53,462 bases of DNA from Methylococcaceae bacterium (GTDB lineage Bacteria > Pseudomonadota > Gammaproteobacteria > Methylococcales > Methylomonadaceae). The stretch's first letter is position 1. Every line of letters begins with the position of its first letter. The translations under genes and the position numbers were made by a program. Below the pieces are notes generated by a model that saw only the letters and a program-made list of their open reading frames with translations, was not told the origin of the DNA and ran no database searches. Below, in pieces: positions 11,920-53,462 of this stretch. Location of the stretch: the NCBI GenBank assembly GCA_012965425.1, contig DTSI01000122.1, positions 1 to 53,462 on the forward strand. The letters run 5' to 3'.

Positions 11920-11975
11920 GGTGATTTTCAGCTCATACTATTTGAGTCATTGATGAGTATGGTGTTGGTTTTGCG

Positions 11976-15050: not shown

Positions 15051-15059
15051 GCTTGCTAA

Positions 15060-16295
15060 TCAGTGATCGTGTGAGGCGCCTGATTTTTCGATATCGGCTT
15101 TAATGATGTAACTGTTCTTGGAAACGTATTCAGCGTTTGGTTTAAGGCCGCTGAGAACCTCGGCCCAGTCGTGTGTGATCAGACCTAATTGAAGCATACG
15201 GACTTCATAGGTTTCACCAATTTTTACAAATACGACAGTCAGGTCTCTAAATGACTGTAACCCTGAACGCTTAACCGCTAGTGGGGCTTTGTGCTCGGCT
15301 ATTTCAATTGCACCGCGAATAAAGCGCCCGGCGATGAGTTGGTTGTTATTATTGTTATGTTGGGTGCGCACAATGACTGATTGATTGGCCTGCGTAACGG
15401 TATCAATTTGGGTAATAACACCGGTGATCGGTTGGTTACTGCCATGAAGGAACAAGGAAACCTTGTTACCTAAAGCGATTTTATGCTGGTTTTCTGGGAA
15501 GATAGCGAGTTCGCTGATTAAAATTGAATCATCAATAAGTGTGAATAAAATGCGGTTATTGGTTTGTTCTCCGGAATTGGCGTTACGGTGGTGAATAACG
15601 CCGTTAATGGGGGCGCGTATTTTAAAAAGTTCAAGGCCTAAGTTTCTTTTAATAGTGAGTAGTAATTGTCCTTTTTTGACCTGCTGACCTAATGAGACTT
15701 TAACGCTTTTTATCGTACCTTCGAAACGTGATCTTATTTCGCGGAAATTTTCAGGGTGTGTCGTTAATTTACCATAAGCTGAAATGGTTTTTTTGAGTAT
15801 TCTAGGTTGTGCAATAGCCGTTTCAATAGCTAATGTTTTGGCCAGATCAGCGTGAATTTTGGTGCGACCTTCGAAACTATCATATTGCCAACGGTGGCTT
15901 ATGTCGCGATAGTGGGCAACGACTAAAATAACAAAGGAATGCGGTTCATAAATAAGACTATCGCCGCGAAGAAAATCTTTCTGTGGCGTGAAATTAATTT
16001 CATTTTGAGTGCCATCAAGACGGGTCAGGGTGATATTCAATGATACATCATGAAGATTAACGGAGTGGCCTTTATCGGTCACCCAAACGCGAAACTCGGG
16101 CGGAATGCCGCGTTCGTAGATGGCAAGCTCGATGGCAAAATCATTGTCAGTTAATAGCCTGCCCTGGTGAGGACCTTTTTGTGGTGTTTTTTTGGGGGCT
16201 TGATCGACAGGGGTTTTATCAGCAAATAGGGGGGTGACAGTTAGTAACAGAAAGAGCGTAAAAATAGAACTAAAGGCTGGCAGTAATATTTTCAT
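15060..16295 (-). CDS. czcB: CzcB-type RND periplasmic adaptor
   Basis: Membrane-fusion protein linking the RND pump to an outer-membrane channel. Residues 1-25 are a signal peptide. The N-terminal third resembles the extra domain seen in CzcB-like adaptors. The lipoyl/barrel-sandwich halves are visible at VKVSLGQQVKKGQLLLTI and FKIRAPINGVIHHRNANSGE, followed by a beta-barrel region. The C-terminus carries a small His motif (ASHDH) that could bind metal. It forms an operon with czcA. Confidence 0.9.
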   Translation of the reverse strand: MKILLPAFSSIFTLFLLLTVTPLFADKTPVDQAPKKTPQKGPHQGRLLTDNDFAIELAIYERGIPPEFRVWVTDKGHSVNLHDVSLNITLTRLDGTQNEINFTPQKDFLRGDSLIYEPHSFVILVVAHYRDISHRWQYDSFEGRTKIHADLAKTLAIETAIAQPRILKKTISAYGKLTTHPENFREIRSRFEGTIKSVKVSLGQQVKKGQLLLTIKRNLGLELFKIRAPINGVIHHRNANSGEQTNNRILFTLIDDSILISELAIFPENQHKIALGNKVSLFLHGSNQPITGVITQIDTVTQANQSVIVRTQHNNNNNQLIAGRFIRGAIEIAEHKAPLAVKRSGLQSFRDLTVVFVKIGETYEVRMLQLGLITHDWAEVLSGLKPNAEYVSKNSYIIKADIEKSGASHDH

Positions 16296-40515: not shown

Positions 40516-40560
40516 GAAAGTAAGCGGTTAGTTTGATGCGGGTTTTCTTGTCGGTTGTGT

Positions 40561-41076
40561 TTATTCGGTTTGTTTTGAATAAAAGCGGTAATCAGCTTGA
40601 TAGGGGACAGCCTGCTCGCTCCCTAAGTGATTACTATTGCAGGGGATGTTAGGTTTCACTCCACCTTGTGTGTTAATTCGATTAATAAAACTAACCGTGG
40701 CAAAGAGTCCGGTGCCGCTGTGTGCTAAGCCTTGAACGAGCAACCAAGGTGCCGCCGTTTTATGCGTGGCATTGGTTTTTTTAACTAAGCGACCGGTCAC
40801 GACGCTACCATCACGGTACTTCCATTGCGGCCCGGTAGAGTGGCTGCCTACAATAGCGCCTTGTTCGTTGAACAGCGTTGCATCCGGGCCGGTTAAGTGC
40901 CAGCGATATTGATTGTCTAGCAGCATACATTGGTAAATTTGAGCACCCTTAGCATGCGTAGTTATGAGTTGCGTATGACCGGCTGGCGGCTGAATACCGT
41001 CAGGAATAGAAATTACTTGGGCAAGCACAGTCGTGAAGGACGATAAAAACAGCAAAGCCGTTGTTAGGAATTTCAT
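40561..41076 (-). CDS. DUF3455 secreted protein
   Basis: 171-residue exported protein with a signal peptide (1-19, TTVLAQ). The body fits DUF3455: GAQIYQCMLLDNQYRWHLTG, PQWKYRDGSVVTGRLV and a C-terminal QADYRFY segment. Function unknown in bacteria. It lies alone on the minus strand. Confidence 0.8.
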   Translation of the reverse strand: MKFLTTALLFLSSFTTVLAQVISIPDGIQPPAGHTQLITTHAKGAQIYQCMLLDNQYRWHLTGPDATLFNEQGAIVGSHSTGPQWKYRDGSVVTGRLVKKTNATHKTAAPWLLVQGLAHSGTGLFATVSFINRINTQGGVKPNIPCNSNHLGSEQAVPYQADYRFYSKQTE

Positions 41077-41247
41077 AGTGGTTGTCTTTTAGTTAATTTA
41101 AGTGGGTCAGTCTAGCAAAAAATAGTGTTTGATACTGGGGGGTGTTTTGAGATTCGGCCTGTTTTTAATGTAGTAGGGCCACTTTAGGAAGATGCCTTAA
41201 GATAAAGCCTTGAAGAACTGTAGGGGTTTTTAATGTAAAATGGTCAA

Positions 41248-42000
41248 ATGTTATGGTCAAATTTTTCATTAGGCTCGGTTAAACCGGAACACCGGTTTCG
41301 CGATTATTTTATTATTGTCTTCACCTTTGTCTGTGTGGCGTTGAGTTTACCTTCTGATGCCGACGGTGATTTGGTGTGGCAGTATAAATTAGGTGCGCTC
41401 GCTTGGTTTTTCTTGATTTGCTTACTTAAAGGTGAAAATGCAAATATTAGAGCTCAAATTGTTGTGGCGATTATTTTTGCAACCATTGGTGAGCATATTG
41501 CATCCATTTATTTAGGCGGGTATACCTATCGTTTTGAAAATGTGCCCGCGTATGTGCCGCCAGGACATGGAATGGTTTATTTGAGTTCTGTGGCCATGGC
41601 GCGCTCCGGGTTGTTTTTACGTTATGCAAAAGAAATCACTTACTTAGTGTTAGTCAGTTGTGGTCTTTGGTCTTTGTGGGGTATTACGTTGGCAGAAAGA
41701 GGGGATGTGGCTGGTGCACTGTTGTACTGTGTCTTTTTTGTGTTTATGTTTAAAGGGCGTTCGCCCTTACTGTATTTAGGTGCTTTTTTTATTACCACAT
41801 GGCTGGAGCTGATTGGCACGGCTTACGGTGTTTGGTATTGGGCTGAGTTGGATCCGTTGTTTGGCTGGCCCGGTGGAAATCCACCCAGTGGTGTTGCGGC
41901 CTTGTATTGTTTGATTGATGCCGCTGCGATTTATGGGGCACCGCATGTTTTGCGATTAGTCGATATGACAAAGCGTCGTTTTTTTGTTCAGCCCGGCTAA
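41248..42000 (+). CDS. Conserved polytopic membrane protein, unknown function
   Basis: 250 residues with about seven predicted membrane helices. Distinctive segments are FATIGEHIASIYLGGYTYRF, PAYVPPGHGMVYLSSVAMAR and WPGGNPPSGVAALYCLIDAA. I do not recognise the family. The many aromatic and Gly/Pro residues in loops suggest an enzyme- or pigment-like membrane protein rather than a simple channel. It stands alone with a good start at 41248 and is the last apparent core gene before the mobile region. Confidence 0.65.
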   Translation: MLWSNFSLGSVKPEHRFRDYFIIVFTFVCVALSLPSDADGDLVWQYKLGALAWFFLICLLKGENANIRAQIVVAIIFATIGEHIASIYLGGYTYRFENVPAYVPPGHGMVYLSSVAMARSGLFLRYAKEITYLVLVSCGLWSLWGITLAERGDVAGALLYCVFFVFMFKGRSPLLYLGAFFITTWLELIGTAYGVWYWAELDPLFGWPGGNPPSGVAALYCLIDAAAIYGAPHVLRLVDMTKRRFFVQPG

Positions 42001-42061
42001 GGAAGCAGCAGGAGTGATTTTCAGTTTTTGGTTTGACTGAAAAAAACTTTATTTTTTAAAA

Positions 42062-42082
42062 TGGCGGAGAGAGAGTCCGCCA
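42062..42082 (-). repeat. Hairpin resembling a tRNA-Ser 3' end, possible attachment site
   Basis: TGGCGGA-GAGAGAG-TCCGCCA is a perfect 7-bp hairpin. Read on the minus strand, the right part of the tRNA-like sequence is CTCTCTCCGCCA followed by TTTT, identical to the last 12 bases of E. coli-type tRNA-Ser(CGA). No T-arm or tRNA body is present, so it could be the 3' fragment left at one end of an integrated element. The adjacent integrase supports this. It could instead be a plain hairpin downstream of the membrane protein gene. Confidence 0.4.
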
Positions 42083-42247
42083 ATAGAGCGCTCAATACCA
42101 TCCAATGCAGTCTTAAAGCACCTTAAAAAACAACACTTTATAGTTTAGTAGCGCCCAACGTTATATGCTATAATCTAAGTCGATTGGGGGGCTAATTGGG
42201 GGACTAGTTTCGTCCCTGACATACTGAAATAACACGGAGCGTTACTT

Positions 42248-43372
42248 ATGGCCATTCATAAACTCAATTCACGGTTTATACCAACTGCAGCTACTGGAAA
42301 ATATGAGGACGGCGGCGGTCTTCGTATTATCGTTACCAAAACAAAAGCTAAGAAATGGGTTCTACGCTATACGCTTAATGGTAGGCGGCGTGAAATGGGC
42401 CTAGGAAGCTATCCCGATGTCGGTTTATCTGCAGCACGTGTCAAAGCCGCTGAATGTCGACAACTTGTAGCATCCGGGATCGACCCCATTGAGGCACGAA
42501 ATGCAAAATCCATAAAAATACCAACCTTTACCACTTGCGCCGCCCAACATATCCGCGCACATCGCAAGGGATGGAAAAACGCTAAACACGGCCGCCAATG
42601 GGTTCGAACGATTAAAACTTATGTGGTTCCTGTCATTGGATCAAAAACAGTTGATACTATTACGACCGATGATATCTTACAAATCCTTAAACCTATATGG
42701 AACACCAAAACGGAAACGGCTAAACGTATCCAAGGACGCATGGAGAATATCCTAGATTTTGCCGCAGCGCGCAAATACCGTGACCAATCAAATCCCGCTC
42801 GGTGGCGTGGTCACTTAGATAAATTATTACCGAAACCTTCTCGGGTTAAAACCGTTGTCCACCACCCTGCAATGCCTTATACCGCACTCCCGGGCTTTAT
42901 GGCTGAACTATCGACTGAAAATATCTCTGCACTGGCCTTACGACTTCTTATACTAACTGCCACACGGACCAGTGAGGTCTTGCAAGCCGAATGGTCCGAA
43001 GTCGACCTGACCGCTGCCATCTGGACTATACCGGCTGAACGAACAAAAACTAAACGCGAACACCGAATCCCTCTATCAGATGCCGCTATCGCTATTTTTA
43101 ATTCTATTGATCATAGCGCCGGTAACCCCTATGTCTTTCCCGGATCCCGGCAAAGTCGACCGTTATCCAATATGGCATTACTGAAGCTAATGCGCGACAA
43201 AGGGTATGGTGCAAACGGTGATAAAGGTAAATACGTTCCACACGGATTCCGATCCAGTTTTCCTCGAGATGTTGCCGAAATGGCATTGGCCCATACGATA
43301 GAGAATAAAACTAAAGCAGCATACCGACGCGGCGACCTCTTCGAAAAACGTAGCGTTGTGATGCAAGATTGA
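42248..43372 (+). pseudogene. Damaged P4-type tyrosine integrase
   Basis: Site-specific recombinase of the DUF4102-N-terminus family. The N-terminal arm-binding domain (KYEDGGGLRIIVTKTKAKKW, LGSYPDVGLSAARVKAAECR) and the catalytic domain (TATRTSEVLQAEW, HGFRSSF, AEMALAHT, AAYRRGDLFEKR) are recognisable, with R, HxxR, H and Y all present. Two defects are seen. About ten residues usually found between HGFRSSF and PRDVAEM (a RDWxAEQ-type segment) are missing without a frame change. The frame then stops at TGA (43370) after MQD, where ANYLS continues in frame, consistent with a Trp codon turned into a stop. Activity is therefore doubtful. Confidence 0.8.
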
Positions 43373-43492
43373 GCTAATTACTTATCTTAATTTAAACCAA
43401 TGACCGTGAGATCATTACGCACGCTGGTAACACTATCAGAACATTTAAATCATCCCTGCCTTTAATTAGCAAATAAACAAATTGAACTTTAA

Positions 43493-43672
43493 ATCCGTAG
43501 CCTCCGCAGAACCTTCGCTACAGTCCTTGAGAACGCAGGAGTACCCGAATCAACGATAAGCCAACTCATGGGTCACAAAAAGCAAAGCATCTCGTTATAC
43601 CTCTACTCAGGCGGCCTAGGATCCACACGATTGCAAACGGAAATAGAACGGATTAGCTTTGACCTAACTTAG
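43493..43672 (+). pseudogene. C-terminal fragment of a second tyrosine recombinase
   Basis: The frame from 43496 reads SLRRTFATVLENAGVPEST and ISQLMGHKKQSISLYLYSGG, ending at TAG 43672. This matches the last 60 residues of phage-type integrases: RRTF is the HxLRRTF region, LMGHK the conserved His, and the Y in SLYLYSGG the likely nucleophile. A stop lies just before it and no start exists. It is unrelated in sequence to the preceding integrase, so two elements have recombined here. Confidence 0.75.
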
Positions 43673-43802
43673 CTCCACTGTATAAAAAACAGACAAGCCT
43701 CGCTATAAGAAAAAACCAAGTTATTCTTTATACATCAATCTCCTAATAATGACTGTTCCTTTAGGAGCTTTGCAACGGCTCATTCCGTATCAAAATTCAT
43801 AT

Positions 43803-44915
43803 TCAGGCGGTAGAGTTAAGCTTATTACTTGCGTCATTTACGCATATATGCACACCCTCTTTTACCATGCATATAATGCTTGTTCCGCTACACACTTCAT
43901 TAGGGTTAGGGTTGGTAACAATCCCATCTGACCCAATATAAGCTAAAGGAAGACCGTAGTTATTTTCAACAGATACAAAGATAATGTCTTTCCATCGTTT
44001 CTCCGTGAAGACCACATCCAATCGTGCTAAGTGATCTCCTGAGTGATAGAATAAGTTCTCCATAACCGTTTCAGTACCAGGAGCCACGATAGCACGAACG
44101 AGAAGTTCTGGATAAGCCCTGATAGGCCTCATTACAGTTTTAGCACCTGCGACTAACATTCTGTTACGATTTAAATCATCAACGCTCTCAGCCGCAATGA
44201 TCGCTTGGGTGCCAATTTCTTTGATTCGAGTCAGAACATCAAAAGTTAAGCTATCAGAAATCTCATCTTGGGGTCGCTTTGCCAGAACAATAATATATTG
44301 CGCTTCCGCCACATTTACAGCATTAAGACATTCATTGCTTTCACTCTTACCGTCATAATGAACGACGCCGAACTCAGTTATTTTACTAGGAAGACCATCA
44401 GAATATTTTCGTGTTAGCAATTGAATCGGTAAATCTTTCAGCTCTGGCGTTTGTCTTATCTGTGAAATAAAGCGACTAAGATATGCTTCAGTGTCTTCGT
44501 CTGGGGTGTTCACGATAAGTATGTGGTCTTTCATTTTCCATCTCCATTTGCCATTTCGTTTCGCTTCTAATGTTTGTGCTCTGCTCTCAATAAACTCAGC
44601 TGCAAGTTCTGCGAGTACCGAGATCGCGAAAAAATAAATACAGATTACTGTGATTAAACGCCCCTGCCAGGTACCGGCAGAAAGATCACCATAGCCAACT
44701 GTTGTAGCCGTAGTAATAGACAACCAGAGTGCATCGCCAGGACTAAACCCCTCGAAATAAACCATTGCTGAAGCATGAACGGCGATCAACCCGGCCAGCA
44801 AGAGGAAAAGTTTGCCCAACCGAATAAGCATTCTTGTTTCTTGGTGCTTAGTGAATTTAAGGTATTTTCTTTTTTTCCAGTACGACCAAAATATAGGTCG
44901 TTGCATCGCTGACAT
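43803..44915 (-). CDS. Potassium channel with TrkA-N-like domain
   Basis: 370 residues. Two membrane helices (about 31-52 and 83-108) flank a pore loop with the K+ selectivity filter TTVGYGDL. A cytoplasmic RCK/TrkA-N-like domain starts near residue 129 (DHILIVNTPDEDTEAYL). The usual GxGxxG nucleotide loop is not kept, so the ligand may differ from NAD(H). The start at 44915 has a good AAAGGA site and lies 2 bp after the 106-residue gene. It is the last gene of the yjfI-pspA-yjfK unit, suggesting control of K+ flux during membrane stress. Confidence 0.88.
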   Translation of the reverse strand: MSAMQRPIFWSYWKKRKYLKFTKHQETRMLIRLGKLFLLLAGLIAVHASAMVYFEGFSPGDALWLSITTATTVGYGDLSAGTWQGRLITVICIYFFAISVLAELAAEFIESRAQTLEAKRNGKWRWKMKDHILIVNTPDEDTEAYLSRFISQIRQTPELKDLPIQLLTRKYSDGLPSKITEFGVVHYDGKSESNECLNAVNVAEAQYIIVLAKRPQDEISDSLTFDVLTRIKEIGTQAIIAAESVDDLNRNRMLVAGAKTVMRPIRAYPELLVRAIVAPGTETVMENLFYHSGDHLARLDVVFTEKRWKDIIFVSVENNYGLPLAYIGSDGIVTNPNPNEVCSGTSIICMVKEGVHICVNDASNKLNSTA

Positions 44916-44917
44916 TA

Positions 44918-45238
44918 TTATTCCTTTCTGCTCCAGTGTAGATTAACTTCTTCCGTCACTCTGCGTTTTATCTCTGCCTCGTCACTAGGATTAAGGCCAT
45001 ACTTTTCCGCAAGGAATTTCAAGTCTGTATCATCGATAGACAAACCAATGCGTGGCCGTTGAATTTTCTTGAAAGGCAATCCAACAATCTTACGAATCAT
45101 ATCGCTGGGCTTAATACCGTAATCAATTGCATCATGCTGAATCTGGTCATTTCGAGCCGCTTGAAAAGAGAAGTGGAGCTGAATTTTCTTTAATGCCGCT
45201 TTCTCAAGACCCCATTTTCCCTCGCTATCTTTAGGCAT
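44918..45238 (-). CDS. 106-residue unknown protein in the pspA operon
   Basis: No family recognised. It is basic and helical, with an internal motif GIKPSDMIRKIVGLPFKK, followed by RPRIGLSIDDTDLKFLAEKY and GLNPSDEAEIKRRVTEEV. The repeated 'G-[IL]-[KN]-P-S-D' pattern suggests two related helical repeats, and a DNA-binding role (for example ribbon-helix-helix-like) is possible but unproven. It overlaps yjfK by 8 bp and is followed by the channel after 2 bp, so tight coexpression is certain. Confidence 0.65.
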   Translation of the reverse strand: MPKDSEGKWGLEKAALKKIQLHFSFQAARNDQIQHDAIDYGIKPSDMIRKIVGLPFKKIQRPRIGLSIDDTDLKFLAEKYGLNPSDEAEIKRRVTEEVNLHWSRKE

Positions 45239-45875
45239 GTGGGTGCATTTCTTCTATAGCTCCGCCATCAATATAAACCTGTAAAAACACATCAGTATCA
45301 CCATCAGCCCATACTTCAACATTGACACCGAAGTTCTCATCCGGACTTTCACATTCGTGATAGCTAAGTTCTTTACCATCATTAGCTTCTGTAAGATTTT
45401 CTTTTCCAGGATCACGATCGTAGAAATACGCTGTTGCATTTTTTATTATCTGAATGTACTTGGGCGCATACCACCCCTCATATTCAGGGACGTCTTGCTG
45501 GACATCTAACTCGACTTGGACATCTTCAAATAAATCGGAAAAAACATCTTCATTAAAGAGAGTTAAAACCTTTTCACGTGGAATTTTTAAGGACAAACAA
45601 ATAGTCTGCTCGCCGTCTTCATTCTCAAAAGACATGTAGATGATGTTGCCGTGCTGATCCTTTAAAGAAATTTCTTTATTTACACCGGACTCATATTCAT
45701 AACCACATACTGAAACAACCGTTAAGGATTGTTCTCTTAGAGATTTTGGTAACTCAGTGCGATACTTAAAGACGACAATGTCGTTTACATTCAGTTGATC
45801 AGGCGAAGAGATAACTCTTGCAGGCCCTGTATCCTGTTCTTTTCTTTTATAAGCCTTGAATAGTTTTTTAAACAT
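45231..45875 (-). CDS. yjfK: DUF2491 protein, YjfK-like
   Basis: 214 residues from the ATG at 45875 (MFKKLFKAYKRKEQ), which has a GAGG ribosome site and fits the 219 residues of E. coli YjfK. The longer frame from 45995 would overlap pspA and add unrelated residues. The sequence has no membrane helix, and is acidic and beta-rich, with segments IIYMSFENEDGEQTICLSL, YEGWYAPKYIQIIKNATAYF and DTDVFLQVYIDGGAIEEM. In E. coli it lies in yjfIJKLMC between the PspA paralogue and the DUF350 protein. Role unknown; likely a cytoplasmic partner of the PspA paralogue. Confidence 0.8.
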   Translation of the reverse strand: MFKKLFKAYKRKEQDTGPARVISSPDQLNVNDIVVFKYRTELPKSLREQSLTVVSVCGYEYESGVNKEISLKDQHGNIIYMSFENEDGEQTICLSLKIPREKVLTLFNEDVFSDLFEDVQVELDVQQDVPEYEGWYAPKYIQIIKNATAYFYDRDPGKENLTEANDGKELSYHECESPDENFGVNVEVWADGDTDVFLQVYIDGGAIEEMHPHA

Positions 45876-45927
45876 TTGAACCTCGTAACAAAAGTGCACC
45901 CGTAGACGCACTCTGACACAACTATGA

Positions 45928-46617
45928 TTATGCTTCTTGTTTCTGGCTCTTAAGACGAGCAAGAACGCTTTTTGCAGAAGCGGAGTTTTCACCAATGCCA
46001 GCGTCAGCTAGGCGAGCCTCAAGATCATCCCCTTGGGTTTCCATCCAGTCACCCGCTTCAAGGTTGTCTTCAAACTTTTGTTGCTTAGCTTTAACCCTCT
46101 CAAGCGCAGCAGAAATTTTGTTGTCGGCACTACCCGAGGCAGAAATGTTAGATGAAATTGCCGATGTCGCTTTTTGAAGCTGCTCTACAGTTTTCACCTT
46201 ATCCAGATCACGCTTATTTTTCTGAATTTTCTTTTCGTAACCTTTAATCATTTTGTTGACTTTATTGACGTTTACTTTTGCCGTGTCATATTCAGTTTTA
46301 AGCTCGTTTCGCTCACTCTCTTTTTCAGCAATACGTTCAGCAACTTCAGTGGCTAATGCTTCCTCGCCTTTTTCCAAACAGGCCATCACTTTTGATTCAA
46401 GACTGACAATATCTTCGTTTAGCGTATTAACCATGCGATTAAGGCTTATTTCATTACCCTTCATGCTAGTCAACGACGTCTTCGCTTTTGCCAATGCTTC
46501 ACCCGCCTCACGAATTTCTTGCTCAAGAATTCTGACTGCATTTGCATCAACAACGGCTTCACCCACTTCACTAACACCGCCCCGAATAGCGGTCATGATA
46601 CTTTTTAAAATACTCAT
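45928..46617 (-). CDS. yjfJ: PspA/IM30-family protein, YjfJ-like
   Basis: 229 residues, nearly all helical coiled-coil as in PspA/Vipp1: starts SILKSIMTAIRGGVSEVGEA (the amphipathic membrane-binding helix), continues through Glu/Lys-rich heptads (about 25-190) and ends in a small C-terminal helix (SAKSVLARLKSQ). PspA-family proteins are ESCRT-III-like membrane-remodelling scaffolds. The neighbours (DUF2170 before, DUF2491 after) identify the YjfJ branch rather than the classical pspABC operon. The yjfI stop lies 13 bp upstream. Confidence 0.92.
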   Translation of the reverse strand: MSILKSIMTAIRGGVSEVGEAVVDANAVRILEQEIREAGEALAKAKTSLTSMKGNEISLNRMVNTLNEDIVSLESKVMACLEKGEEALATEVAERIAEKESERNELKTEYDTAKVNVNKVNKMIKGYEKKIQKNKRDLDKVKTVEQLQKATSAISSNISASGSADNKISAALERVKAKQQKFEDNLEAGDWMETQGDDLEARLADAGIGENSASAKSVLARLKSQKQEA

Positions 46618-46630
46618 CTTTTTACCCCGT

Positions 46631-47035
46631 TTAAACTAATAGATCTTGTTCTTGAATTTCTTCCAATACTTCAATCGTGTTTTCAGCTTGTACCTCTAAC
46701 TCGTGAACTATATTCTCGACTGAAGTGCTAAGCGACATTGCGCCGAATAATATATACATGTCACCCTGCAAACCCACAGAGCTTAATGGAACGGCTGGGC
46801 TCATTTGTAACATTTCAACGTTAAGTGCGGCGATTTTCTCAGGCTTAACATCACTTACTTTGAATAGCTGAGTAACGGCCAATAATTGAGTGTCGGTTTC
46901 GACCAGGTGAATCGAGAATTCGTCATTGTTCGAACAAACTACCTCCAACACGCCAGACTCGGAAAGAACCGCTTGGAAAGTAGTTCCCTCGGCAGTCGTT
47001 TGCTCGTTTAGCTTATGCATTAAATCTGCAAGCAT
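46631..47035 (-). CDS. yjfI: DUF2170 protein, YjfI-like
   Basis: 134 residues from the ATG at 47035 (MLADLMHKLNEQT). I choose this start because AAAGGAG lies just before it and E. coli YjfI has 133 residues; the ATG at 47059 has no ribosome site and lies next to an operator. The protein is soluble and acidic with alternating strands and helices, including ESGVLEVVCSNNDEFSIHLV and PAVPLSSVGLQGDMYILFGA. Function unknown; always seen with PspA paralogues in my knowledge of the yjf operon. First gene of the second half of the module. Confidence 0.82.
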   Translation of the reverse strand: MLADLMHKLNEQTTAEGTTFQAVLSESGVLEVVCSNNDEFSIHLVETDTQLLAVTQLFKVSDVKPEKIAALNVEMLQMSPAVPLSSVGLQGDMYILFGAMSLSTSVENIVHELEVQAENTIEVLEEIQEQDLLV

Positions 47036-47060
47036 TTCAGGCTCCTTTATGGTTTCCATG

Positions 47061-47114
47061 CGCCATATTATGGCGTTGAGTTAATAATATATGCCATATT
47101 ATGGCTTTTGGCAA
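47061..47114 (-). promoter_or_regulatory. yjfI promoter overlaid by two palindromic operators
   Basis: On the minus strand: -35 TTGCCA (47114-47109), exactly 17 bp spacer, -10 TATATT (47091-47086). GCCATAATATGGC (47105-47093), a perfect 6-1-6 palindrome, fills the spacer. CGCCATAATATGGCG (47075-47061), a perfect 7-1-7 palindrome with the same core, lies just after the expected start of transcription. Their centres are 31 bp apart, about three helical turns. This is a classic layout for repression by a dimeric regulator binding cooperatively. The -35 lies right after the stop of the spermidine synthase gene. Confidence 0.75.
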
Positions 47115-47115
47115 C

Positions 47116-48837
47116 TTATTTGCTGCGCTTTGTGTAAAAAACACCTTCATGCTTTCCCCATGCCTCTTGGTGGTATTGGTAGGTAGCATGAGAACCTAAA
47201 TAATTAACTGCTATTTTGCTCTTTTCGGCATAGAAATTGGTTGGAAAGACAAAAGCCGCCATCATTTGTTCTTTGGTTAGATTACTTTCTATAGAGGCGT
47301 TACGCTCAGAAGACGCCAACCGCTCTTTGGGAGACTTGCCAATTTTAGTAGCAATAGTCCAACCCCACTCACCAAATGTTGGCACATTGGTATGGTATTG
47401 CTCAGTAACAAATCCTGCATCTTCTACTGTTTTACCAACAGAAATAAACGCTTTTTGGGAGTGGTAAGGTGAAGTAGATTGCACGACCATGGCTCCATCA
47501 CCTGAAAGTAAATCTTTAAGGCGACTATAGAAGAAATTACTGTAAACCTTATTGATGTCTGGGTGACTTGGGTCAGGCAAGTCCACAATAATCGTGTCAA
47601 AACGCTTTTGTTCGCTAAGAAGTTTTTCCACCTCTACAAACGCATCACCAATAACAATAGAAACTCTAGGGTCTCTGAAAGCACTATTATTCATTGCCAG
47701 AATACGCTGCGCTAGATCGATTGGCATATCCTGATCTTCACCTCTGAACATAGAAATCATTTCTTTATCGAGATCAATTAACGTTACCGTCAGAGGGTTC
47801 CATTGTAAAATATCTCTTACAGCTAAACCGTCTCCGCCACCGATAACCAACACATGGTCTTGCCGTGCAGAAGCTGTAAGGGCTGGATAGGTTAGGTAGC
47901 TGTGATAAATTTCCTCATCATTGCTTGAGAATTGAAGCCTCCCATTGATATATAGGCTTGTAATTTTAGGCAAGCCCTTCCCTATATACCGTTCAGTTAC
48001 TGTCAAATGCTGATATGGAGTGATCTTCGTATGTATTACCGTATCTTTGAACAGCGTTGCTTGCATATTTTCCATCCAGCTCGCACCACCTAATGCCAAT
48101 GATGTAATAATACCTAGCAATACAAAGTGAGCGATAAACAATTTACCGACCGACTTTAATCGCTCTTTATAGATAATAATAAAGACGATCCCTACGATGG
48201 AATTAACTAGCGATGTAGCAACCGCAGCGGTGATAATGGGCAATTTTAAACAGACGAGAACCCATATAGCCGCACCTACCCCAGCCCCAATATAATCAGC
48301 ACCATAAATGGTGCCAATATTGTGCTCCAAGTGTTCGCCGTGTAAATCTTCACGAATTCGGGCGATCAAGGGTATCTCCATACCTATCATTAACCCGAGT
48401 AACCCTCCTGCTAGAAAAGGCAGGACGTTGGTAAATCTTGTGAGTCCACGAATAAACTCCCCATCAGTCGTAATTGTTGGGTGTAAGCCATAAATATCTT
48501 GTAAGTACGTGGGTAACGTATAAGACAGTGAGAAGCTTAATGAAATGAGAATGATTGAGGTGGCACCCGCAAACCCGATCGCCCACTCCAGCCAGACAAA
48601 ACCATTGAATGGGCACTTAACCCATTTCGCGATAAATGCACCAACCCCCATAGAAACAATCATAATACCTATCATGGCATAGATGGTTGACTCCATCGCG
48701 CCAAGCACCCGACCTGCGTAATGGGCCATTAAGTATTCATAAATTAATCCGCATGCTGCTAACGTACCCATAATGGTTATTAGCAAAGCATCATGAATGA
48801 ATAGCTTTTGTTTCAGACTGAAAGTTGATGCAGTCAT
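47116..48837 (-). CDS. speE: Membrane-fused spermidine synthase-like protein
   Basis: 573 residues from the ATG at 48837 (MTASTFSLKQK). The N-terminal 220 or so residues form about seven membrane helices. The C-terminal half is an aminopropyltransferase domain: TVTERYIGKGLPKITSLYIN, the motif VLVIGGGDGLAVRDIL (decarboxylated-SAM binding), VTLIDLDKEMISMF, and FDTIIVDLPDPSHP with the catalytic Asp. A GTG at 48855 is an alternative start overlapping the DUF350 gene. With speD in the same operon it should make spermidine or a related polyamine at the membrane; the acceptor is unknown. Confidence 0.87.
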   Translation of the reverse strand: MTASTFSLKQKLFIHDALLITIMGTLAACGLIYEYLMAHYAGRVLGAMESTIYAMIGIMIVSMGVGAFIAKWVKCPFNGFVWLEWAIGFAGATSIILISLSFSLSYTLPTYLQDIYGLHPTITTDGEFIRGLTRFTNVLPFLAGGLLGLMIGMEIPLIARIREDLHGEHLEHNIGTIYGADYIGAGVGAAIWVLVCLKLPIITAAVATSLVNSIVGIVFIIIYKERLKSVGKLFIAHFVLLGIITSLALGGASWMENMQATLFKDTVIHTKITPYQHLTVTERYIGKGLPKITSLYINGRLQFSSNDEEIYHSYLTYPALTASARQDHVLVIGGGDGLAVRDILQWNPLTVTLIDLDKEMISMFRGEDQDMPIDLAQRILAMNNSAFRDPRVSIVIGDAFVEVEKLLSEQKRFDTIIVDLPDPSHPDINKVYSNFFYSRLKDLLSGDGAMVVQSTSPYHSQKAFISVGKTVEDAGFVTEQYHTNVPTFGEWGWTIATKIGKSPKERLASSERNASIESNLTKEQMMAAFVFPTNFYAEKSKIAVNYLGSHATYQYHQEAWGKHEGVFYTKRSK

Positions 48838-48841
48838 ATGA

Positions 48842-49729
48842 TTACGCCAACACACTAATAATTAATAAACCAATAACAATGAAAATAGCAGCTTCAACTA
48901 ATGCAATCCCGCTGTTCTGCTGGTTGTCTACCTCCTCGACAACATCAATATTGTGAAGGATTGCTTTACGCGCAATAAACGAAAAGAACGTTGTGATAAA
49001 GGATAAGCATACCGATACAGCTGACCACCATACGGCCGACATAAATGGCGTAGCATGAATATACTCAACCATAGAACCAGCTGCACTGAACGCTAACGCA
49101 GATCCTAATAAGTGGCCCGCATAGCGAATAGCTAATGCTTGATTACCACCCTTTAACGCAAGCTGAAGAAATTCCCCAGGGTGACGGCGTGAATAGATAA
49201 ATGCTCTAGCTCGAGTAACGGCAAGCAAAACGACCTGAGTAGAAAAGAAAGCAGTTGCAGCGGCTGTTAAGCCGGTCCAGTCTTCCGCATCAACCCACCC
49301 CATAATGGCATTAATGATAATACCCAGTGCCACGAAATTAGCGGCTTGCACTATACCGATTGCCTTGTTTTCATTATGAATCTCATTCTTCAATGAGAAT
49401 TTATGAAAAATAACAAACTCATTAATCTGAGCGCCTATTTTCAAAAGAACGACACCTGCAAAAGCATACGTTAAGATATTAATGACTTCTTGAATGTATG
49501 ATGCATCAGCATCTCCTTTTACTGCTGCAGAAAGTACTAGGCCAAGCGCAATAGCACCACCTGCAAAAACAGTACCAAAGGCATAGTTATCTTTCTTTGA
49601 GAGTTCGTCAGTCGTATTGACGCCAGCAAGTAAACCTAGCAAGTAGCGGAAACTTGCGATGCTAGCGACAGCAACAAGCATATTGATAGTTAGGACAACA
49701 AGCATCCAAGGTTCTATTTGATATAACAT
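48842..49729 (-). CDS. DUF350 membrane protein with two repeats
   Basis: 295 residues, about eight membrane helices. DUF350 proteins such as E. coli YjfL have four helices in about 130 residues. Here two copies appear: the first about residues 10-135 (YAFGTVFAGGAIALGLVLSA, ILTYAFAGVVLLKIGAQIN) and the second about 145-295 (ENKAIGIVQAANFVALGIII-type start, then VCLSFITTFFSFIARK). This is a duplication fused in one chain. It follows the lipoprotein by 11 bp and overlaps the possible GTG start of the spermidine synthase. Role unknown. Confidence 0.83.
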   Translation of the reverse strand: MLYQIEPWMLVVLTINMLVAVASIASFRYLLGLLAGVNTTDELSKKDNYAFGTVFAGGAIALGLVLSAAVKGDADASYIQEVINILTYAFAGVVLLKIGAQINEFVIFHKFSLKNEIHNENKAIGIVQAANFVALGIIINAIMGWVDAEDWTGLTAAATAFFSTQVVLLAVTRARAFIYSRRHPGEFLQLALKGGNQALAIRYAGHLLGSALAFSAAGSMVEYIHATPFMSAVWWSAVSVCLSFITTFFSFIARKAILHNIDVVEEVDNQQNSGIALVEAAIFIVIGLLIISVLA

Positions 49730-49740
49730 ATATTTGTTCC

Positions 49741-50742
49741 CTATTTTCCGCCAAATGAACTGCGCGATGAGGTATAGCCCGTACTGCGTGAATTACTGTA
49801 GACGCTTTTACTAGCCGTCTTGTATGAGCTTGGTGTTTTCGTCTTACTATAACCCGCTGTTGATGAAGAGCCCGCATTAGGTTTGCTTGATCTCTGCGAG
49901 GAAATTTTCGTTGTTGTAGCACGCTTCTTGGCATAAGCACTTTGAAATTTCTTACCCTGCCTCGCGAACTTTTTCTTTGTTTGCGTTTCGAGAGAAGATT
50001 GAGACTTCTTCTGTCGAGGTGAAGTGTATGTTGAGCGTCCGTAATCGTGGTAATAACTATACCCTCGTCGTCTACTCCAACTATCGTAATAATAAGACCT
50101 GTTCATCATGCTTGAGAAGAAAGCATACTGGCCATACCAAGCCCATAAGCTATTACCACTACTATTAGTTCGCCATGACCCATAGTGCGGGTTACCCACT
50201 AGCTGTGCTCCGGCTCCTGAGTCACTAACCCCATCAATCCTTTCTTCGGCTGTTTTGCTTAAGGCATCTATACGAGGAAGCCTTCCATCAGATAAATCAG
50301 CTAACACATTGATTGGGTCAGCTAGCATCTGGCCATACAAATGTGATTTCGCTGCATTATTGATTGCTACAAATTCGTTGTTTACTTCTTTGTAGCGCTC
50401 AATATCACCTTGGTCTGAAGCAGGAATGTCCGAAATAGCATCGGTTAAGCGTAATTTCAAGCCTTGGAATATCGGTCCTTCAGTAGTCGAGTCTTTGGCT
50501 AGTTGATCTATCAAATCGGATAATTCAGGTTTGTGCATTGCTACTTGAGAGGCATACATTGCAAGAATTGCTGAGTTAGGAATGTTCCCTGCCTTGATAT
50601 GCCCCTCAAGGCGACTCAGGTTTCGTTCTGTCGTCCTGGCAAACTCATTTAATCGCTTTTCACGCTTTTCCTGCTCAGAGCTACAGCCTACAATCAAGAG
50701 CTGTATCAGGAGAACAGTAAAAATAAGTTTCAACTTATTCAT
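49741..50742 (-). CDS. Lipoprotein with Tyr/Ser-rich tail, unknown function
   Basis: 333 residues. The lipobox is LLIVGC (Cys20). Residues 25-190 are a helical domain (NEFARTTERNLSRLEGHIKA; DPINVLADLSDGRLPRIDAL). After about residue 190 comes an aromatic segment (NPHYGSWRTNSSGNSLWAWY, SYYYDSWSRRRGYSYYHDYG), then a basic low-complexity Ser/Lys/Thr tail ending in RSSFGGK. The tail is likely extracytoplasmic and disordered. I know no function for it. The AAGGA ribosome site and the tight spacing to DUF350 show it belongs to the operon. Confidence 0.72.
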   Translation of the reverse strand: MNKLKLIFTVLLIQLLIVGCSSEQEKREKRLNEFARTTERNLSRLEGHIKAGNIPNSAILAMYASQVAMHKPELSDLIDQLAKDSTTEGPIFQGLKLRLTDAISDIPASDQGDIERYKEVNNEFVAINNAAKSHLYGQMLADPINVLADLSDGRLPRIDALSKTAEERIDGVSDSGAGAQLVGNPHYGSWRTNSSGNSLWAWYGQYAFFSSMMNRSYYYDSWSRRRGYSYYHDYGRSTYTSPRQKKSQSSLETQTKKKFARQGKKFQSAYAKKRATTTKISSQRSSKPNAGSSSTAGYSKTKTPSSYKTASKSVYSNSRSTGYTSSRSSFGGK

Positions 50743-50784
50743 TTATACTTTTCCTTATAGGGTTAATATTCTCATTACGAAAAA

Positions 50785-51174
50785 TTACGACTCAAAAGGT
50801 AGGCATCGATCAAGAGACCGCACCTCCACAATTGAATCACTAAAGCTCTCTGCTATATATTTGGCTGACAGCTCTGGCTGAGCATCACCACACATAAAAA
50901 CATCGAAGGCCGCATATCCTTTTTCCGGCCACTGGTGAACCGTCATATGAGACTCTGACAACACTAGAACCCCAGTTAGCCCACAGCCCTCACCAAAACT
51001 ATGAAAATGATGTGCTAGAACCGTGGCACCAGCAACAGCTGCGGCCTCCTCCATCAAGGCCCTCAGTTCTTTCTCTTTCAAAAAAGCCTGCCTGCCTTTG
51101 CATTCAATCAATAAATGTTTGCCAATAGTCACTTCTTCTTTCTTCCTGTAGTGGTCAAATAATTTTGGACTCAT
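50785..51174 (-). CDS. speD: S-adenosylmethionine decarboxylase, small class
   Basis: Makes decarboxylated SAM for aminopropyl transfer. About 129 residues from the ATG at 51174 (MSPKLFDHYRKKEEV). The self-cleavage site ESH (VLSESHMTVHQWPE) gives the pyruvoyl serine; GYAAFDVFMCGDA completes the active-site region. It is the bacterial class Ib size. An ATG at 51192 is also in frame, but its six extra residues lie in DNA that reads as an integrase remnant in another frame, so I prefer 51174. Ribosome site is weak. Upstream of the lipoprotein by 42 bp, it heads the first half of the module. Confidence 0.85.
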   Translation of the reverse strand: MSPKLFDHYRKKEEVTIGKHLLIECKGRQAFLKEKELRALMEEAAAVAGATVLAHHFHSFGEGCGLTGVLVLSESHMTVHQWPEKGYAAFDVFMCGDAQPELSAKYIAESFSDSIVEVRSLDRCLPFES

Positions 51175-51376
51175 CTCGACGATCTCGGGCATCTTTTAAG
51201 CGAATGGCGGGGTAAACAGTCATGGAAAGGGGTTTGCGCTTACTTTGGAAACGATAGTCAAAACGCCACCAGTTGCCACCACTCGGACTGACAAGCTAAT
51301 ACAACCCGCCGCCATCGGTTAATTTGTAGGCTTTTTCCTTGGGTGTACAGGTTTTGATCGTGATTGCTGTCGACAT
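51170..51376 (-). pseudogene. N-terminal remnant of a DUF4102-type integrase
   Basis: Minus strand from ATG 51376 reads MSTAITIKTCTPKEKAYKLT, then DGGGLY, a TAG stop at 51298-51296, then LVSPSGGNWWRFDYRF and LSMTVYPAIRLKDARDRRDE. This matches the arm-binding domain of P4-type integrases up to the KDARDRRDE helix, after which similarity ends and the frame closes. The end at about 51170 lies inside the 5' end of speD. It is a separate integrase from the one at 42248 and has the opposite orientation. Confidence 0.78.
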
Positions 51377-51696
51377 CCTGATGGTAACACCTTTGAGAGT
51401 AACTCATATAAGGTCAAATATAACATAAAAAAAGATGGATGATATTTCGAAGTCTAATGAACCTAAATAGCCGTAAAATATACCGGTAATCTATGGATTA
51501 ATAATTGTTAAAATACTGTATTGAACTTACGTGGATGCTTATTTAGTGGCGATAACTGGGATCGAACTAAAAGCGATGAGAAACCCAGAAGAACCGCTAT
51601 TGCTGTTCTAACAGCTTGTTTAGTGTTAACTTTTAGATTCATCAAGACAGAAAATACCCATCTAACATGACACAACAAGATACCAAATACCTTCGG
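51377..51696. other. Unassigned stretch between integrase and hsdR remnants
   Basis: No gene recognised. The minus strand has a 76-codon frame (51738-51508) whose first codons belong to the hsdR remnant; the rest lacks recognisable similarity. A short direct or terminal repeat search did not yield a convincing insertion sequence end by eye. Confidence 0.4.
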
Positions 51697-51738
51697 CTGT
51701 TTGTCGATGAGTTCTGCGCGTGTATCAGCTTCGTTCAT
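51697..51738 (-). pseudogene. hsdR: 5' remnant of hsdR (type I restriction subunit)
   Basis: ATG at 51738 overlaps the hsdS stop (ATGA). The first residues MNEADTRAELIDKQ match the start of EcoEI-type HsdR proteins. After about 14 residues the similarity ends abruptly, so nearly the whole endonuclease gene has been deleted. Confidence 0.65.
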
Positions 51739-52222
51739 GGTGATTCGTTTTGTAGTTCTTGTGCGAGGATTGATGCTTTTAGAACATTATAGTGAGTAAC
51801 CTGTTGTTCGTAGATAAGTGCTAAGTTTTGTGTTTGTGTGGAAATGCTGTCTAGTTTTTCTATCAAGCCAATTTGAACTTTTTTGCTTGAAGGATAGTAA
51901 AAATTAAAGTCTCCAATCTGTTTTTTTGTAATAGCTTGTCTAGTAGCACCTTCACTATCACCGACTTCTAATAATTCAACTTTACAAGGTTTAGAAACTA
52001 ATCCGTATGCCAATAGCTTAGGCATAACAGTATTCTCTTTAACTCGAATAATGCAAACGTGTTAATTTACACGAGCGGGCAAAATATCACTTCCTACAAC
52101 ACAGCACCGTGCCACAGATGCACCTGTTATGTTTAAAAGTACATCATCGCGCTGCACGGTAACGTTAGCCAGCTTGGTACCTTGTTCATCATTCAGAAAT
52201 TCAAAGTGGTAGAGATTATGCA
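51735..52222 (-). pseudogene. hsdS: hsdS (type I restriction specificity subunit) remnant
   Basis: The reading frame contains HFEFLNDEQGTKLANVTV, DDVLLNITGASVARCCVV, DILPARVN, a TAA stop (52064-52062, probably a former Gln codon), HVCIIRVKENTV, and after that the open frame ATRQAITKKQIGDFNFYYPS and a coiled-coil end. These are the central conserved and C-terminal parts of HsdS; the first target-recognition domain is missing. The remnant is followed by the hsdR start with the usual overlap. Confidence 0.82.
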
Positions 52223-52306
52223 TCTCTTAATGACGGCCAAGCGGTAGAATATGAAGTAGGCCAAGGCCAGAAAGGTCCTTGTGCTAACAAAGTTGTAGCA
52301 ATTTAG
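52223..52306 (+). pseudogene. 3' fragment of a cold-shock protein gene
   Basis: Frame 52223-52306 reads SLNDGQAVEYEVGQGQKGPC then ANKVVAI and a stop; this matches the C-terminal strand of CspA-family proteins. The upstream RNP motifs are absent. It joins the hsdS remnant at its 5' end, and an attC-like site starts 8 bp after its stop. Confidence 0.72.
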
Positions 52307-52314
52307 TAAAAAAC

Positions 52315-52381
52315 ACATAACCAGCCGCTTAACTTGACCGGCGCATAAAACGCACCGATCAAGTTAGCTCAAACGTTATAG
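52315..52381 (+). other. Integron attC-like recombination site
   Basis: ACATAAC (52315-52321) and GTTATAG (52375-52381) form the outer R''/R' boxes, pairing over ATAAC/GTTAT. Unpaired spacers follow, then GCTTAACTTGA (52327-52337) pairing with TCAAGTTAGC (52359-52368), leaving one extra T on the first strand. The loss of perfect symmetry by a single extrahelical base and the position just after a gene stop are hallmarks of attC. No integron integrase is in the window. Confidence 0.6.
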
Positions 52382-52554
52382 GGCGGCTTAAAGTCCGCTG
52401 GCGCCCGAAGCAAGCATACTCCACGTTCCGAATTCAGTAGCCCTTTTTCCCTTAACAAGGAAATGCCACTTTGTTGCTGATTCCGTCTATTGCCTTGGTG
52501 GGTATTGCTATTTGACTAAAGTGATTTTGGCGCTATTTTGACTCACAAAATAAA

Positions 52555-52578
52555 GGCCATCGAAAAAACTCGATGGCC
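52555..52578 (-). terminator. Terminator of the small basic protein gene
   Basis: GGCCATCGA-AAAAAC-TCGATGGCC is a perfect 9-bp stem, 10 bp downstream of the minus-strand stop at 52588, followed on that strand by a T-rich tract (TTTATTTTG). Confidence 0.85.
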
Positions 52579-52587
52579 GTCCCGTGC

Positions 52588-52704
52588 TTAATTACCTAAA
52601 ACATTGGCTGTGGATTTCTTGGCTGCCTTTGCAGCTTTCTTCTCTTTTGCCGTTAAAAGCGGTTTCTTTTTGACATTCTTTTTACTGTCTTGTCCTTTAC
52701 TCAT
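52588..52704 (-). CDS. Small Lys-rich protein (38 residues)
   Basis: Short gene beginning at the ATG 52704, with AGGAG placed 7 bp before it, and ending at TAA 52588; a strong terminator follows. The product starts MSKGQDSKKNVKKKPLL and continues with TAKEKKAAKAAKKST, so it is very basic, probably unstructured or nucleic-acid binding. Small proteins of this MSKGQDSKK type are widespread in gammaproteobacteria, with no known role. The tidy signals at both ends make it a true gene. Confidence 0.75.
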   Translation of the reverse strand: MSKGQDSKKNVKKKPLLTAKEKKAAKAAKKSTANVLGN

Positions 52705-52768
52705 GATACTCTCCTCTTGAGGTAACCTCTTAAACCTAAAGTCAGTCTAAGCCAACCTATGGACTGTG

Positions 52769-52812
52769 GTTACGCAACGCCCTCCATTCAAGCGGCCAAG
52801 TCGATGCGTAAC
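52769..52812. repeat. Inverted repeat in 300-bp gene-poor stretch
   Basis: GTTACGC (52769-52775) pairs with GCGTAAC (52806-52812) in the otherwise gene-free stretch 52705-53009. No T-tract and no box order fitting attC. A 70-codon plus frame crosses it, but I see no support for coding. Confidence 0.4.
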
Positions 52813-53009
52813 AATATCAGTATGGTCTTATGGGCGATCAATTGATAGGATTAGCTGGTCGCTATGTGCATTAATGTCTATTATTAGCACATACTATACC
52901 TATCACGAAGATTCAGAGTATTACCTGTTGCCCGATAACAAGGTGTTCAATTTGACGCCAAAAAGTGGCGCAAATTAACTTAACGCTAGGAACTCGAGCT
53001 ACCCAGTCT

Positions 53010-53462
53010 ATGGAAAAATTAGTTGTACTCGTTGATGTGCAGAATATTTATTACACGACAAAGCAATCTTATGCTTGTAATTTTGATTACAATAAGTTTT
53101 GGGCGAAAGCCACTTCAAATAGGAAGGTAATAAAAGCGATTGCTTACGCCATCGATCGCAATGATGAAAAACAAAGACAGTTTCAAAATATACTTAGAGC
53201 GATCGGTTTTGAGGTAAAACTTAAGCCATTTATCCAAAGGGTTGATGGGTCAGCAAAAGGCGATTGGGATGTGGGCATAACTCTCGACGCTATAGAGTAC
53301 GCCAAAGATGCAGATGTGGTCGTGTTAGCATCAGGTGATGGGGATTTTGATTTGCTGGTTGAAAAAATACGTAAAGATTTAAATGCGATAGTAGAGGTCT
53401 ACGGTGTGCCTAAGTTCACATCCACTTCACTAATTAGTTCAGCATCAAAATACATTCCAATC
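53010..53462 (+). CDS. NYN-domain (LabA/DUF88-like) protein, 3' end cut by window
   Basis: Starts MEKLVVLVDVQNIYYTTKQS and continues through FWAKATSNRKVIKAIAYAID, GDWDVGITLDAIEYAKDADV, VVLASGDGDFDLLVEKIRK to the window end. The acidic residues in VDVQN, DWDVG and SGDGDF are the metal-binding site of NYN/PIN-like ribonucleases. About 151 residues are present, and the C-terminus lies outside. NYN proteins often sit in accessory islands and may cut RNA in stress or defence. Nothing else here narrows its role. Confidence 0.85.
   Translation, partial: MEKLVVLVDVQNIYYTTKQSYACNFDYNKFWAKATSNRKVIKAIAYAIDRNDEKQRQFQNILRAIGFEVKLKPFIQRVDGSAKGDWDVGITLDAIEYAKDADVVVLASGDGDFDLLVEKIRKDLNAIVEVYGVPKFTSTSLISSASKYIPI

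Follow-up and report, generated by a model that had tools for sequence, protein, structure and literature searches.

Introduction

PspA is an ESCRT-III-family membrane remodeller that is present across life. The operon class closest to the locus studied here was described by Ravi et al. 2024 (PMC11237479), who defined a 6–7-gene core and proposed a role for it in polyamine-linked membrane dynamics. In the main text of that study, a K+ channel occurs only in the third, ATP-grasp, group, the AdoMet decarboxylase is placed in operons without the PspA dyad, and TelA is not mentioned. Related operons are yjfIJKLMC in E. coli, where YjfC is annotated as a peptide-spermidine ligase and heat-evolved strains show increased expression of yjfIJKL (PMC12492005), and bacABCDEF in P. 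aeruginosa, for which the published report (PMC10948618) describes a contribution of bacA to biofilm formation, a sigma-54-type promoter, and no spermidine synthase in or around the operon. Copies of yjfIJKLMC are also found on the plasmids pQBR103, pPma4326F and V. campbellii pIFL1_1. Our literature search retrieved no experiment on the operon, and searches for M. tuberculosis Rv2598-2601 and for guessed locus tags of Shewanella were likewise negative.

Here, we analyse a nine-gene block in a marine methane-oxidising bacterium (Methylococcaceae, GCA_012965425.1), located in a stretch of 53,462 nucleotides of contig DTSI01000122.1, hereafter the window. The idea that the gene set is unrecorded is not supported, because Ravi et al. 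2024 (PMC11237479) cover both the operon class and the link between polyamines and the membrane.

Gene content of the block

The nine minus-strand ORFs at 43803-51192 overlap or nearly abut each other, in the order SpeD–lipoprotein–DUF350–7TM-SpeE–DUF2170–PspA–DUF4178–RHH–K+ channel (Table 1). This agrees with the nine same-strand genes of the initial annotation, several family labels of which are revised below.

Table 1. Features of the block and of its integrase-containing flank.
Feature	Coordinates	Strand	Basis
Tyrosine integrase, 374 aa, adjoining the block	42248..43372	+	Phage_int_M 3.6e-29, Arm-DNA-bind_3 1e-21, Phage_integrase 4.2e-15
C-terminal remnant of a second integrase	43494..43661	+	Translation read from sequence
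Two-TM K+ channel, TTVGYGD selectivity filter, cytoplasmic RCK-like domain	43803..44915	-	PF07885 2.3e-12, PF22614 1.3e-4
Tandem ribbon-helix-helix (RHH) protein, 106 aa	44918..45238	-	Structure model, weak profile matches
DUF4178-family beta-rich protein	45231..45875	-	DUF4178 in 31/55 homologues
PspA/IM30 (YjfJ-type), 229 aa	45928..46617	-	PF04012 1.1e-34
DUF2170 / YjfI-BacA family (CesT/Tir-chaperone-like)	46631..47059	-	PF09938 1.7e-24
7TM-fused aminopropyltransferase (SpeE-like), 579 aa (GTG start) or about 573 aa (ATG start at 48837)	47116..48855	-	PRK03612 6.6e-170, 566 bits
Double DUF350 (YjfL-family) integral membrane protein, 295 aa	48842..49729	-	PF03994 1.1e-33, two stretches
Lipoprotein, GNPxYGxW motif, low-complexity C-terminus	49741..50742	-	Lipobox IVGC in translation
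speD, class 1b S-adenosylmethionine decarboxylase proenzyme, 135 aa	50785..51192	-	PF02675 2.9e-28, TIGR03330 4e-31

The speD gene, which encodes the only SpeD in the genome, starts at the ATG at 51192 or at the ATG at 51174, the latter being the start chosen initially. Its product matches the T. maritima SpeD structure 1vr7 (2e-17) and contains the pyruvoyl Ser81, His86 and Cys101, as expected for a putative AdoMet decarboxylase. In the 7TM-SpeE protein, seven hydrophobic segments located N-terminal of residue 252 are fused to a spermidine-synthase domain, residues 263-539 of which match the spermidine synthase 1iy9 (5.6e-28). The motifs GGGDG, D425-L-P-D428-P, QSTSPYH and NVPTFGEWGW are retained, in agreement with a putative spermidine synthase function, and the catalytic motifs are invariant across nearly all sampled homologues.

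Of the other membrane-related proteins, the DUF350 protein contains seven hydrophobic segments by simple hydropathy, and residues 29-276 of the K+ channel match K+ channel structures, MthK among them. No Pfam family reached the cut-off for the lipoprotein, homologues of which were present at 80 of 85 compared loci, with the GNPxYGxW motif in 77 of these 80. Judged by position and lipobox rather than by a profile, it corresponds to the "novel lipoprotein (Ctha_1186 domain)" of Ravi et al. (PMC11237479).

The DUF2170 protein is related to the solved DUF2170 family protein 8q8o (4.6e-06), and its profile finds E. coli YjfI (2.6e-18), just as the PspA profile finds YjfJ (1.7e-43). The initial proposal of a module related to yjfIJKL is supported, as a conserved combination of polyamine and PspA genes. 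The gene that had been labeled DUF2491 belongs instead with DUF4178 (Table 1); DUF2491 is absent from the Pfam matches listed for its 55 homologues, and its profile misses YjfK, the DUF2491 type (E 0.55), while finding an annotated DUF4178 protein. Translation likely starts at the ATG at 45875 and not at the TTG at 45995, which overlaps pspA. The predicted structure is all-beta and confident (pLDDT 92.6), with no meaningful fold match in the PDB. Nor is the PspA protein a paralogue, as previously stated, because it is the single PspA_IM30 protein in the genome. The absence of yjfC and yjfM was correctly recognized, since other families account for all nine ORFs.

The ORF once listed as a 106-residue unknown is real and can now be characterized: the gene is conserved at 69 of 85 loci and its product is predicted to contain two ribbon-helix-helix motifs, the model showing two RHH-like pairs of helices. 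Some homologues weakly match RHH_10, RHH_1 and NikA-like profiles, and the PDB matches to the model include permuted single-chain Arc, antitoxin Rv0298, NikA, CopG and CdbA, all with non-significant E-values. The protein is probably an autoregulator of the operon. As for other regulatory elements, an Rfam search of 40000-53462 gave no match, no tRNA or tmRNA was found within the window, and scans for sigma-70 promoters and terminators gave background levels only. A sigma-54 scan scored against a shuffled background showed no convincing enrichment either ahead of the first gene or ahead of the DUF2170 gene, the top scores being similar to those of the background.

Conservation of the gene set and supply of polyamines

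A search for the same genes elsewhere revealed shared synteny, with all nine genes present at 24 of the 85 loci. Because the same order recurs across marine gammaproteobacteria, the set is not due to chance, and co-occurrence of the genes is far beyond what chance would give. Most of the remaining loci lack SpeD, the channel or both and are otherwise complete. The channel is found at 52 loci and SpeD within the operon at 38, speD being the gene most often missing, while the genes for the lipoprotein, DUF350, DUF2170, PspA and DUF4178 are present more consistently. Thus, neither SpeD nor the K+ channel is essential to the core. Pairwise identities of the block genes are correlated, with r mostly 0.75-0.92 for the core and lower values, 0.57-0.82, for the K+ channel. 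The original description of the block as two halves fits the separable or reorderable modules seen among these loci. A new observation is that TelA, or alternatively band-7/SPFH-SHOCT proteins, take the place of DUF2170-PspA beside some related 7TM-SpeE/DUF4178 genes, which suggests that the scaffold is exchangeable.

Also new is the finding of operon carriers that lack SpeD and yet retain an intact SpeE active site, which is as conserved as in the SpeD carriers. Among 23 sampled genomes whose operon lacks its own SpeD, 12 have no SpeD at all, corresponding to 12 of the 36 sampled carriers, and spermidine production can therefore not be the universal output of the operon. A carboxynorspermidine decarboxylase, representing a separate polyamine route, scored above the cut-off in five of these 12 genomes.

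Horizontal acquisition

In this genome, the block is local foreign DNA that was acquired horizontally. It adjoins an integrase, genus mates have the same flanks around a site where the block is missing, and the tree of the block conflicts with the host order, with an AU test rejecting a single clade for the host-order copies (p 9e-99). The integrase remnant has copies that are 83-85% identical elsewhere in the genus. The initial proposal of an island is supported for the host genome, but not as a general rule, since the flanks sampled elsewhere consist of ordinary chromosomal genes. A search for direct repeats or att sites marking the exact ends of the island gave no convincing pair. We found no plasmid DNA match to the block, and the matches to plasmids at the protein level were distant 7TM-SpeE proteins on megaplasmids only, at about 30% identity. 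PADLOC matches to SpeE-mad2 (5.6e-13) and to the PspA coiled-coil look like shared folds and not like a defence system.

Discussion

Our main hypothesis, to which we assign about an even chance of being correct, is that the block is an accessory operon that was acquired horizontally and serves under inner-membrane stress. PspA would coat and remodel the damaged inner membrane, restrained or targeted by the YjfI-like DUF2170 chaperone. At the membrane, SpeD and the membrane-tethered SpeE could produce spermidine or a different aminopropylated compound, and this product may stabilise anionic lipid or signal to PspA, DUF4178 and the channel-like DUF350 protein. The lipoprotein may report the state of the envelope, while the exit of K+ through the RCK-gated channel could balance the added polycation or a lost membrane potential, with expression of the operon being controlled by the tandem-RHH protein. 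In favor of this hypothesis we count the family assignments, the conserved nine-gene order, the correlated identities, the invariant SpeE motifs, the replacement of DUF2170-PspA by membrane-associated TelA or band-7/SPFH-SHOCT proteins, and the horizontal arrival, along with the view of Ravi et al. (PMC11237479), the upregulation of yjfIJKL in heat-evolved E. coli (PMC12492005) and the described contribution of bacA to biofilm formation (PMC10948618). Against it we count the relatives without SpeD or channel, including the SpeD-less genomes, and that no sigma-54 signal like that of the psp and bac operons was seen upstream.

A possible, albeit rather unlikely, alternative is that 7TM-SpeE is not a polyamine synthase but modifies another membrane acceptor, such as a lipid head group, a peptide or a lipoprotein; SpeD would then help only optionally, by raising the level of decarboxylated SAM, and the module would mark membrane components for PspA. 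The SpeD-less genomes with their conserved active site, the separate polyamine route in some of them, and the QSTSPYH and FGEWGW pocket motifs, which differ from those of aligned soluble spermidine synthases, are consistent with this alternative, and Ravi et al. (PMC11237479) mention aminopropylation of further substrates. However, GGGDG and both Asp of DxxD are kept in 7TM-SpeE, the NCBIfam name for the family is polyamine aminopropyltransferase, and many loci do have an in-operon SpeD. More speculatively, the core of 7TM aminopropyltransferase, DUF4178 and DUF350, usually with the lipoprotein, could be a general membrane-conditioning machine on interchangeable scaffolds (PspA-YjfI, TelA, band-7/SPFH), with the K+ channel as its electrical partner. 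Under this reading, which we consider unlikely, the enzyme would modify a membrane acceptor rather than make free spermidine, which would explain why the core persists in genomes without any SpeD.

It is very unlikely that a small host genome has simply gained a self-contained cassette for spermidine supply, with PspA and the channel as mere passengers. The only SpeD and the strongest spermidine-synthase match of the genome do lie in the block, but the host also has a full-length carboxynorspermidine-decarboxylase-like gene (280 bits, under the family cut-off), and PspA, like most other genes of the block, is more constant than speD, which is the gene most often missing. Least probable of all is an anti-phage or anti-toxin defence island, an idea raised initially that is not supported: the adjoining integrase, the patchy presence of the operon and the induction of PspA by phage secretins would fit, but PADLOC gave no convincing match within the block, the 103 flanking ORFs gave few matches at 1e-10, each in one member only and several to housekeeping-like families, flank Pfam tallies were mostly ordinary metabolism and envelope genes, and 7TM-SpeE was absent from the phage records and viral contigs searched.

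Comparison with known systems

Operons of this type occur widely among marine bacteria and have for the most part been described before, with a presumed role in protection of the cell membrane. The classical pspFABC system differs in that PspB, PspC and PspF are not found among the nine products, nor a sigma-54 excess upstream of the first gene. The bac operon shares the DUF2170 protein (BacA) and the PspA-family protein (BacB), whereas its reported sigma-54-type promoter (PMC10948618) has no counterpart that stood out upstream in the block. The E. coli yjfIJKLMC operon has in common with the block DUF2170, PspA and DUF350 in one operon and a polyamine link. The block lacks DUF2491 (YjfK), DUF1190 (YjfM) and the ATP-grasp ligase (YjfC), and it contains SpeD, 7TM-SpeE, DUF4178, RHH, the K+ channel and a different lipoprotein. 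In the TelA variant (Alteromonas mediterranea pAMCP48-600, genome G490), 7TM-SpeE, DUF4178, a related lipoprotein and DUF350 are shared, as is SpeD on plasmid pAMCP48-600, and the position of DUF2170-PspA is taken by TelA together with a small protein predicted to be membrane-bound.

The closest relative is the "second major group" of Ravi et al. (CesT/Tir-PspA with 7TM-spermidine-synthase; Shewanella AAN56744-AAN56747), which has seven of the nine genes in common with the block: the DUF2170-PspA dyad, here as adjacent ORFs (PF09938, PF04012), the 7TM region fused N-terminally to a spermidine-synthase domain, the 8TM DUF350 protein, the lipoprotein, identified by position and lipobox and not by profile, DUF4178, and the optional terminal RHH gene. 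The block is an extended variant of this core, with speD added in front and the RCK K+ channel following RHH at the end. The nine-gene version thereby extends a recurrent pairing of PspA with a polyamine enzyme by a dedicated SAM decarboxylase and by a gated K+ channel, and with the SpeD-less carriers the acceptor of the membrane-bound aminopropyltransferase is now directly testable in culturable Shewanella, Colwellia and Psychromonas.

Gene content and conservation

The nine open reading frames of the block lie on one strand and encode, in order of transcription, SpeD (S-adenosylmethionine decarboxylase), a lipoprotein, a double DUF350 protein, a 7TM-fused aminopropyltransferase (7TM-SpeE), DUF2170, PspA (the sole PspA in the host genome), DUF4178, a tandem-RHH protein of 106 residues and a K+ channel that carries an RCK-like domain. 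The DUF2491 label in the initial annotation is wrong, since Pfam matches among 55 homologs were to DUF4178 in 31 and to DUF2491 in none, and the family profile missed the DUF2491-type YjfK of E. coli (E 0.55). The 106-residue product, previously called an unknown, proves to come from a conserved gene; its AlphaFold model has two helix pairs placed like RHH motifs, and a permuted single-chain Arc, the antitoxin Rv0298, NikA, CopG and CdbA appear in the Foldseek list with weak E-values.

One scan of GTDB genomes returned at least 552 relatives of 7TM-SpeE. Among 85 loci searched with profiles (80 of them scan hits, with the window and four loci of related genomes added), we found the genes for DUF350 in 83, the lipoprotein in 80, DUF2170, PspA and DUF4178 in 73 each, RHH in 69, the K+ channel in 52 and SpeD in 38. 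The window's gene order is the commonest one and 24 of the 85 loci carry all nine genes, which bears out the earlier view of the nine genes as a meaningful set. The core genes show strongly correlated pairwise identities (r mostly 0.75–0.92; the K+ channel is looser), indicating that these genes have largely moved as one set. The proposed division into two halves holds insofar as several loci have extra genes between SpeE and DUF2170, some are reduced to lipoprotein-DUF350-SpeE, and others have lipoprotein-DUF350 shifted to the operon end; however, SpeE and DUF2170 mostly still adjoin, and the halves are thus tendencies rather than units.

In two loci, too few to gauge generality, TelA (toxic anion resistance) and a small predicted membrane protein replace DUF2170-PspA beside related 7TM-SpeE, DUF4178, lipoprotein and DUF350 genes (Alteromonas mediterranea plasmid pAMCP48-600, 6007–12665; genome G490, 7106–15090). 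A band-7/SPFH-SHOCT gene adjoins a tandem DUF4178 gene and lies upstream of 7TM-SpeE in loci L042 and L043, and a separate lineage (L154) has the order SpeD-CesT-PspA-DUF4178-DUF350-SpeE, unlike the block. Band-7 and actinobacterial variants have been described (Ravi et al., 2024; PMC11237479); TelA is absent from the main text of that article.

Supply of decarboxylated SAM

The block SpeD retains the pyruvoyl Ser, His and Cys, and SpeE retains GGGDG and the D-L-P-D-P motif, with QSTSPYH and FGEWGW as family-specific segments. SpeD of locus L056 has SHSH in place of the window's SESH, and in two Moritella loci (L110, L133) the in-operon SpeD is shorter and diverged near the catalytic region (ESHAAVHTFPEEGKSYVELSSC).

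The search for SpeD covered 36 genomes. In 13 of them SpeD is encoded within the operon; it is the only copy in 12 of these, and the remaining one has a second copy. Among the other 23, 11 encode SpeD elsewhere, and none was found anywhere in 12 (Psychromonas, Thalassotalea, Shewanella, Colwellia and relatives). The SpeE active site is the same in all three groups. Carboxynorspermidine decarboxylase scored above the cut-off in five of the 12 SpeD-less genomes. Since no source of decarboxylated SAM was recognized in these hosts, either it comes from an unrecognized source or SpeE works by a different chemistry. Of the questions raised by the block, this one is the most interesting.

Transfer and insertion site

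The host genome (2.32 Mb, 99.8% complete) encodes an AMO/PmoA-family protein, and a relative in the same order (G044) was matched by sequence containment to Methylococcaceae bacterium UBA1147; the host is thus very likely a Methylococcales methanotroph. In the SpeE tree, the window copy falls among copies from genomes labelled Cellvibrionales or Porticoccaceae and is remote from the copies of its own order, and a single clade for the latter was rejected (p-AU 9e-99). The left flank is shared with G003 and G004 and the right flank with G001 and G004, genus mates that lack the block at this site; G003 carries a partial block (97% identity) on a short contig, while its left-flank contig has no block at that place. 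From the tree conflict and these block-free flanks, we conclude that the block counts as mobile on an evolutionary scale and forms an island in this genome. It is uncommon, being present in 13 of 369 genomes of the class (E 1e-100) and, at a looser threshold (E 1e-40), in 24 of 311 of the order.

The island claim stands locally, but 103 ORFs sampled from flanks elsewhere are of ordinary chromosomal character and revealed no accumulation of defence genes, leaving a general defence-island reading, and the suggested role against phage, unsupported.

Features of the block and its insertion site (window positions)
Feature	Position	Remark
Left flank	up to 42075 or 41999	matches G003/G004, then different DNA
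Integrase	42248–43372	fills gap between shared flanks
Integrase remnant	43494–43661	also within gap, with block
Nine-gene block	43803–51192	minus strand
7TM-SpeE	47116–48855	
400-bp repeat	51163–51567	speD start and upstream DNA; 83% identity, on host contig C147
Right flank	from 52184	kept in G004 and G001, there on separate contig
Imperfect hairpin	52313–52385	strong; DNA fold z-score -3.8; between block and NYN gene; ends similar to integron attC sites
NYN-domain (LabA-like) gene	52965–53462	86–88% DNA identity in genus mates; right-flank marker of variable site

The integrase may be inactive; next to related integrases, it seems to be short of about 10 residues close to the C-terminal RSSF-PRDVAEMALAHTI segment.

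A 97%-identical block forms a 7.3 kb contig in an 'uncultured Oleiphilus' bin (L056, CAJWBJ010000157.1); its ends nearly coincide with the block edges, so it was probably misbinned or broken at repeats. Copies in an Acidobacteriota-labelled MAG (L066) and a Desulfocapsaceae MAG (L076) fall inside gammaproteobacterial clades, through either transfer or misbinning.

Comparison with known systems

The best-supported reading, to which we give about an even chance, is that the block is an inner-membrane stress module; a specific polyamine–K+ coupling is perhaps conceivable, and we consider it rather unlikely. The initial annotation rightly linked the set to the yjf genes, and yjfIJKL of E. coli has higher expression in heat-evolved strains (PMC12492005). 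Another paper presents P. aeruginosa BacA as a solved DUF2170 protein and links its related operon to biofilm formation (PMC10948618). Our literature search turned up no functional work on the nine genes as a set. The set had been thought unrecorded, but an operon of six to seven genes was already described by Ravi et al. (2024), who predict that polyamine concentration or aminopropylation acts in PspA membrane dynamics (PMC11237479). The nine-gene block is an extended variant of this operon class. Ravi et al. (2024) placed the K+ channel in a different group, with an ATP-grasp ligase, whereas here the channel closes the block.
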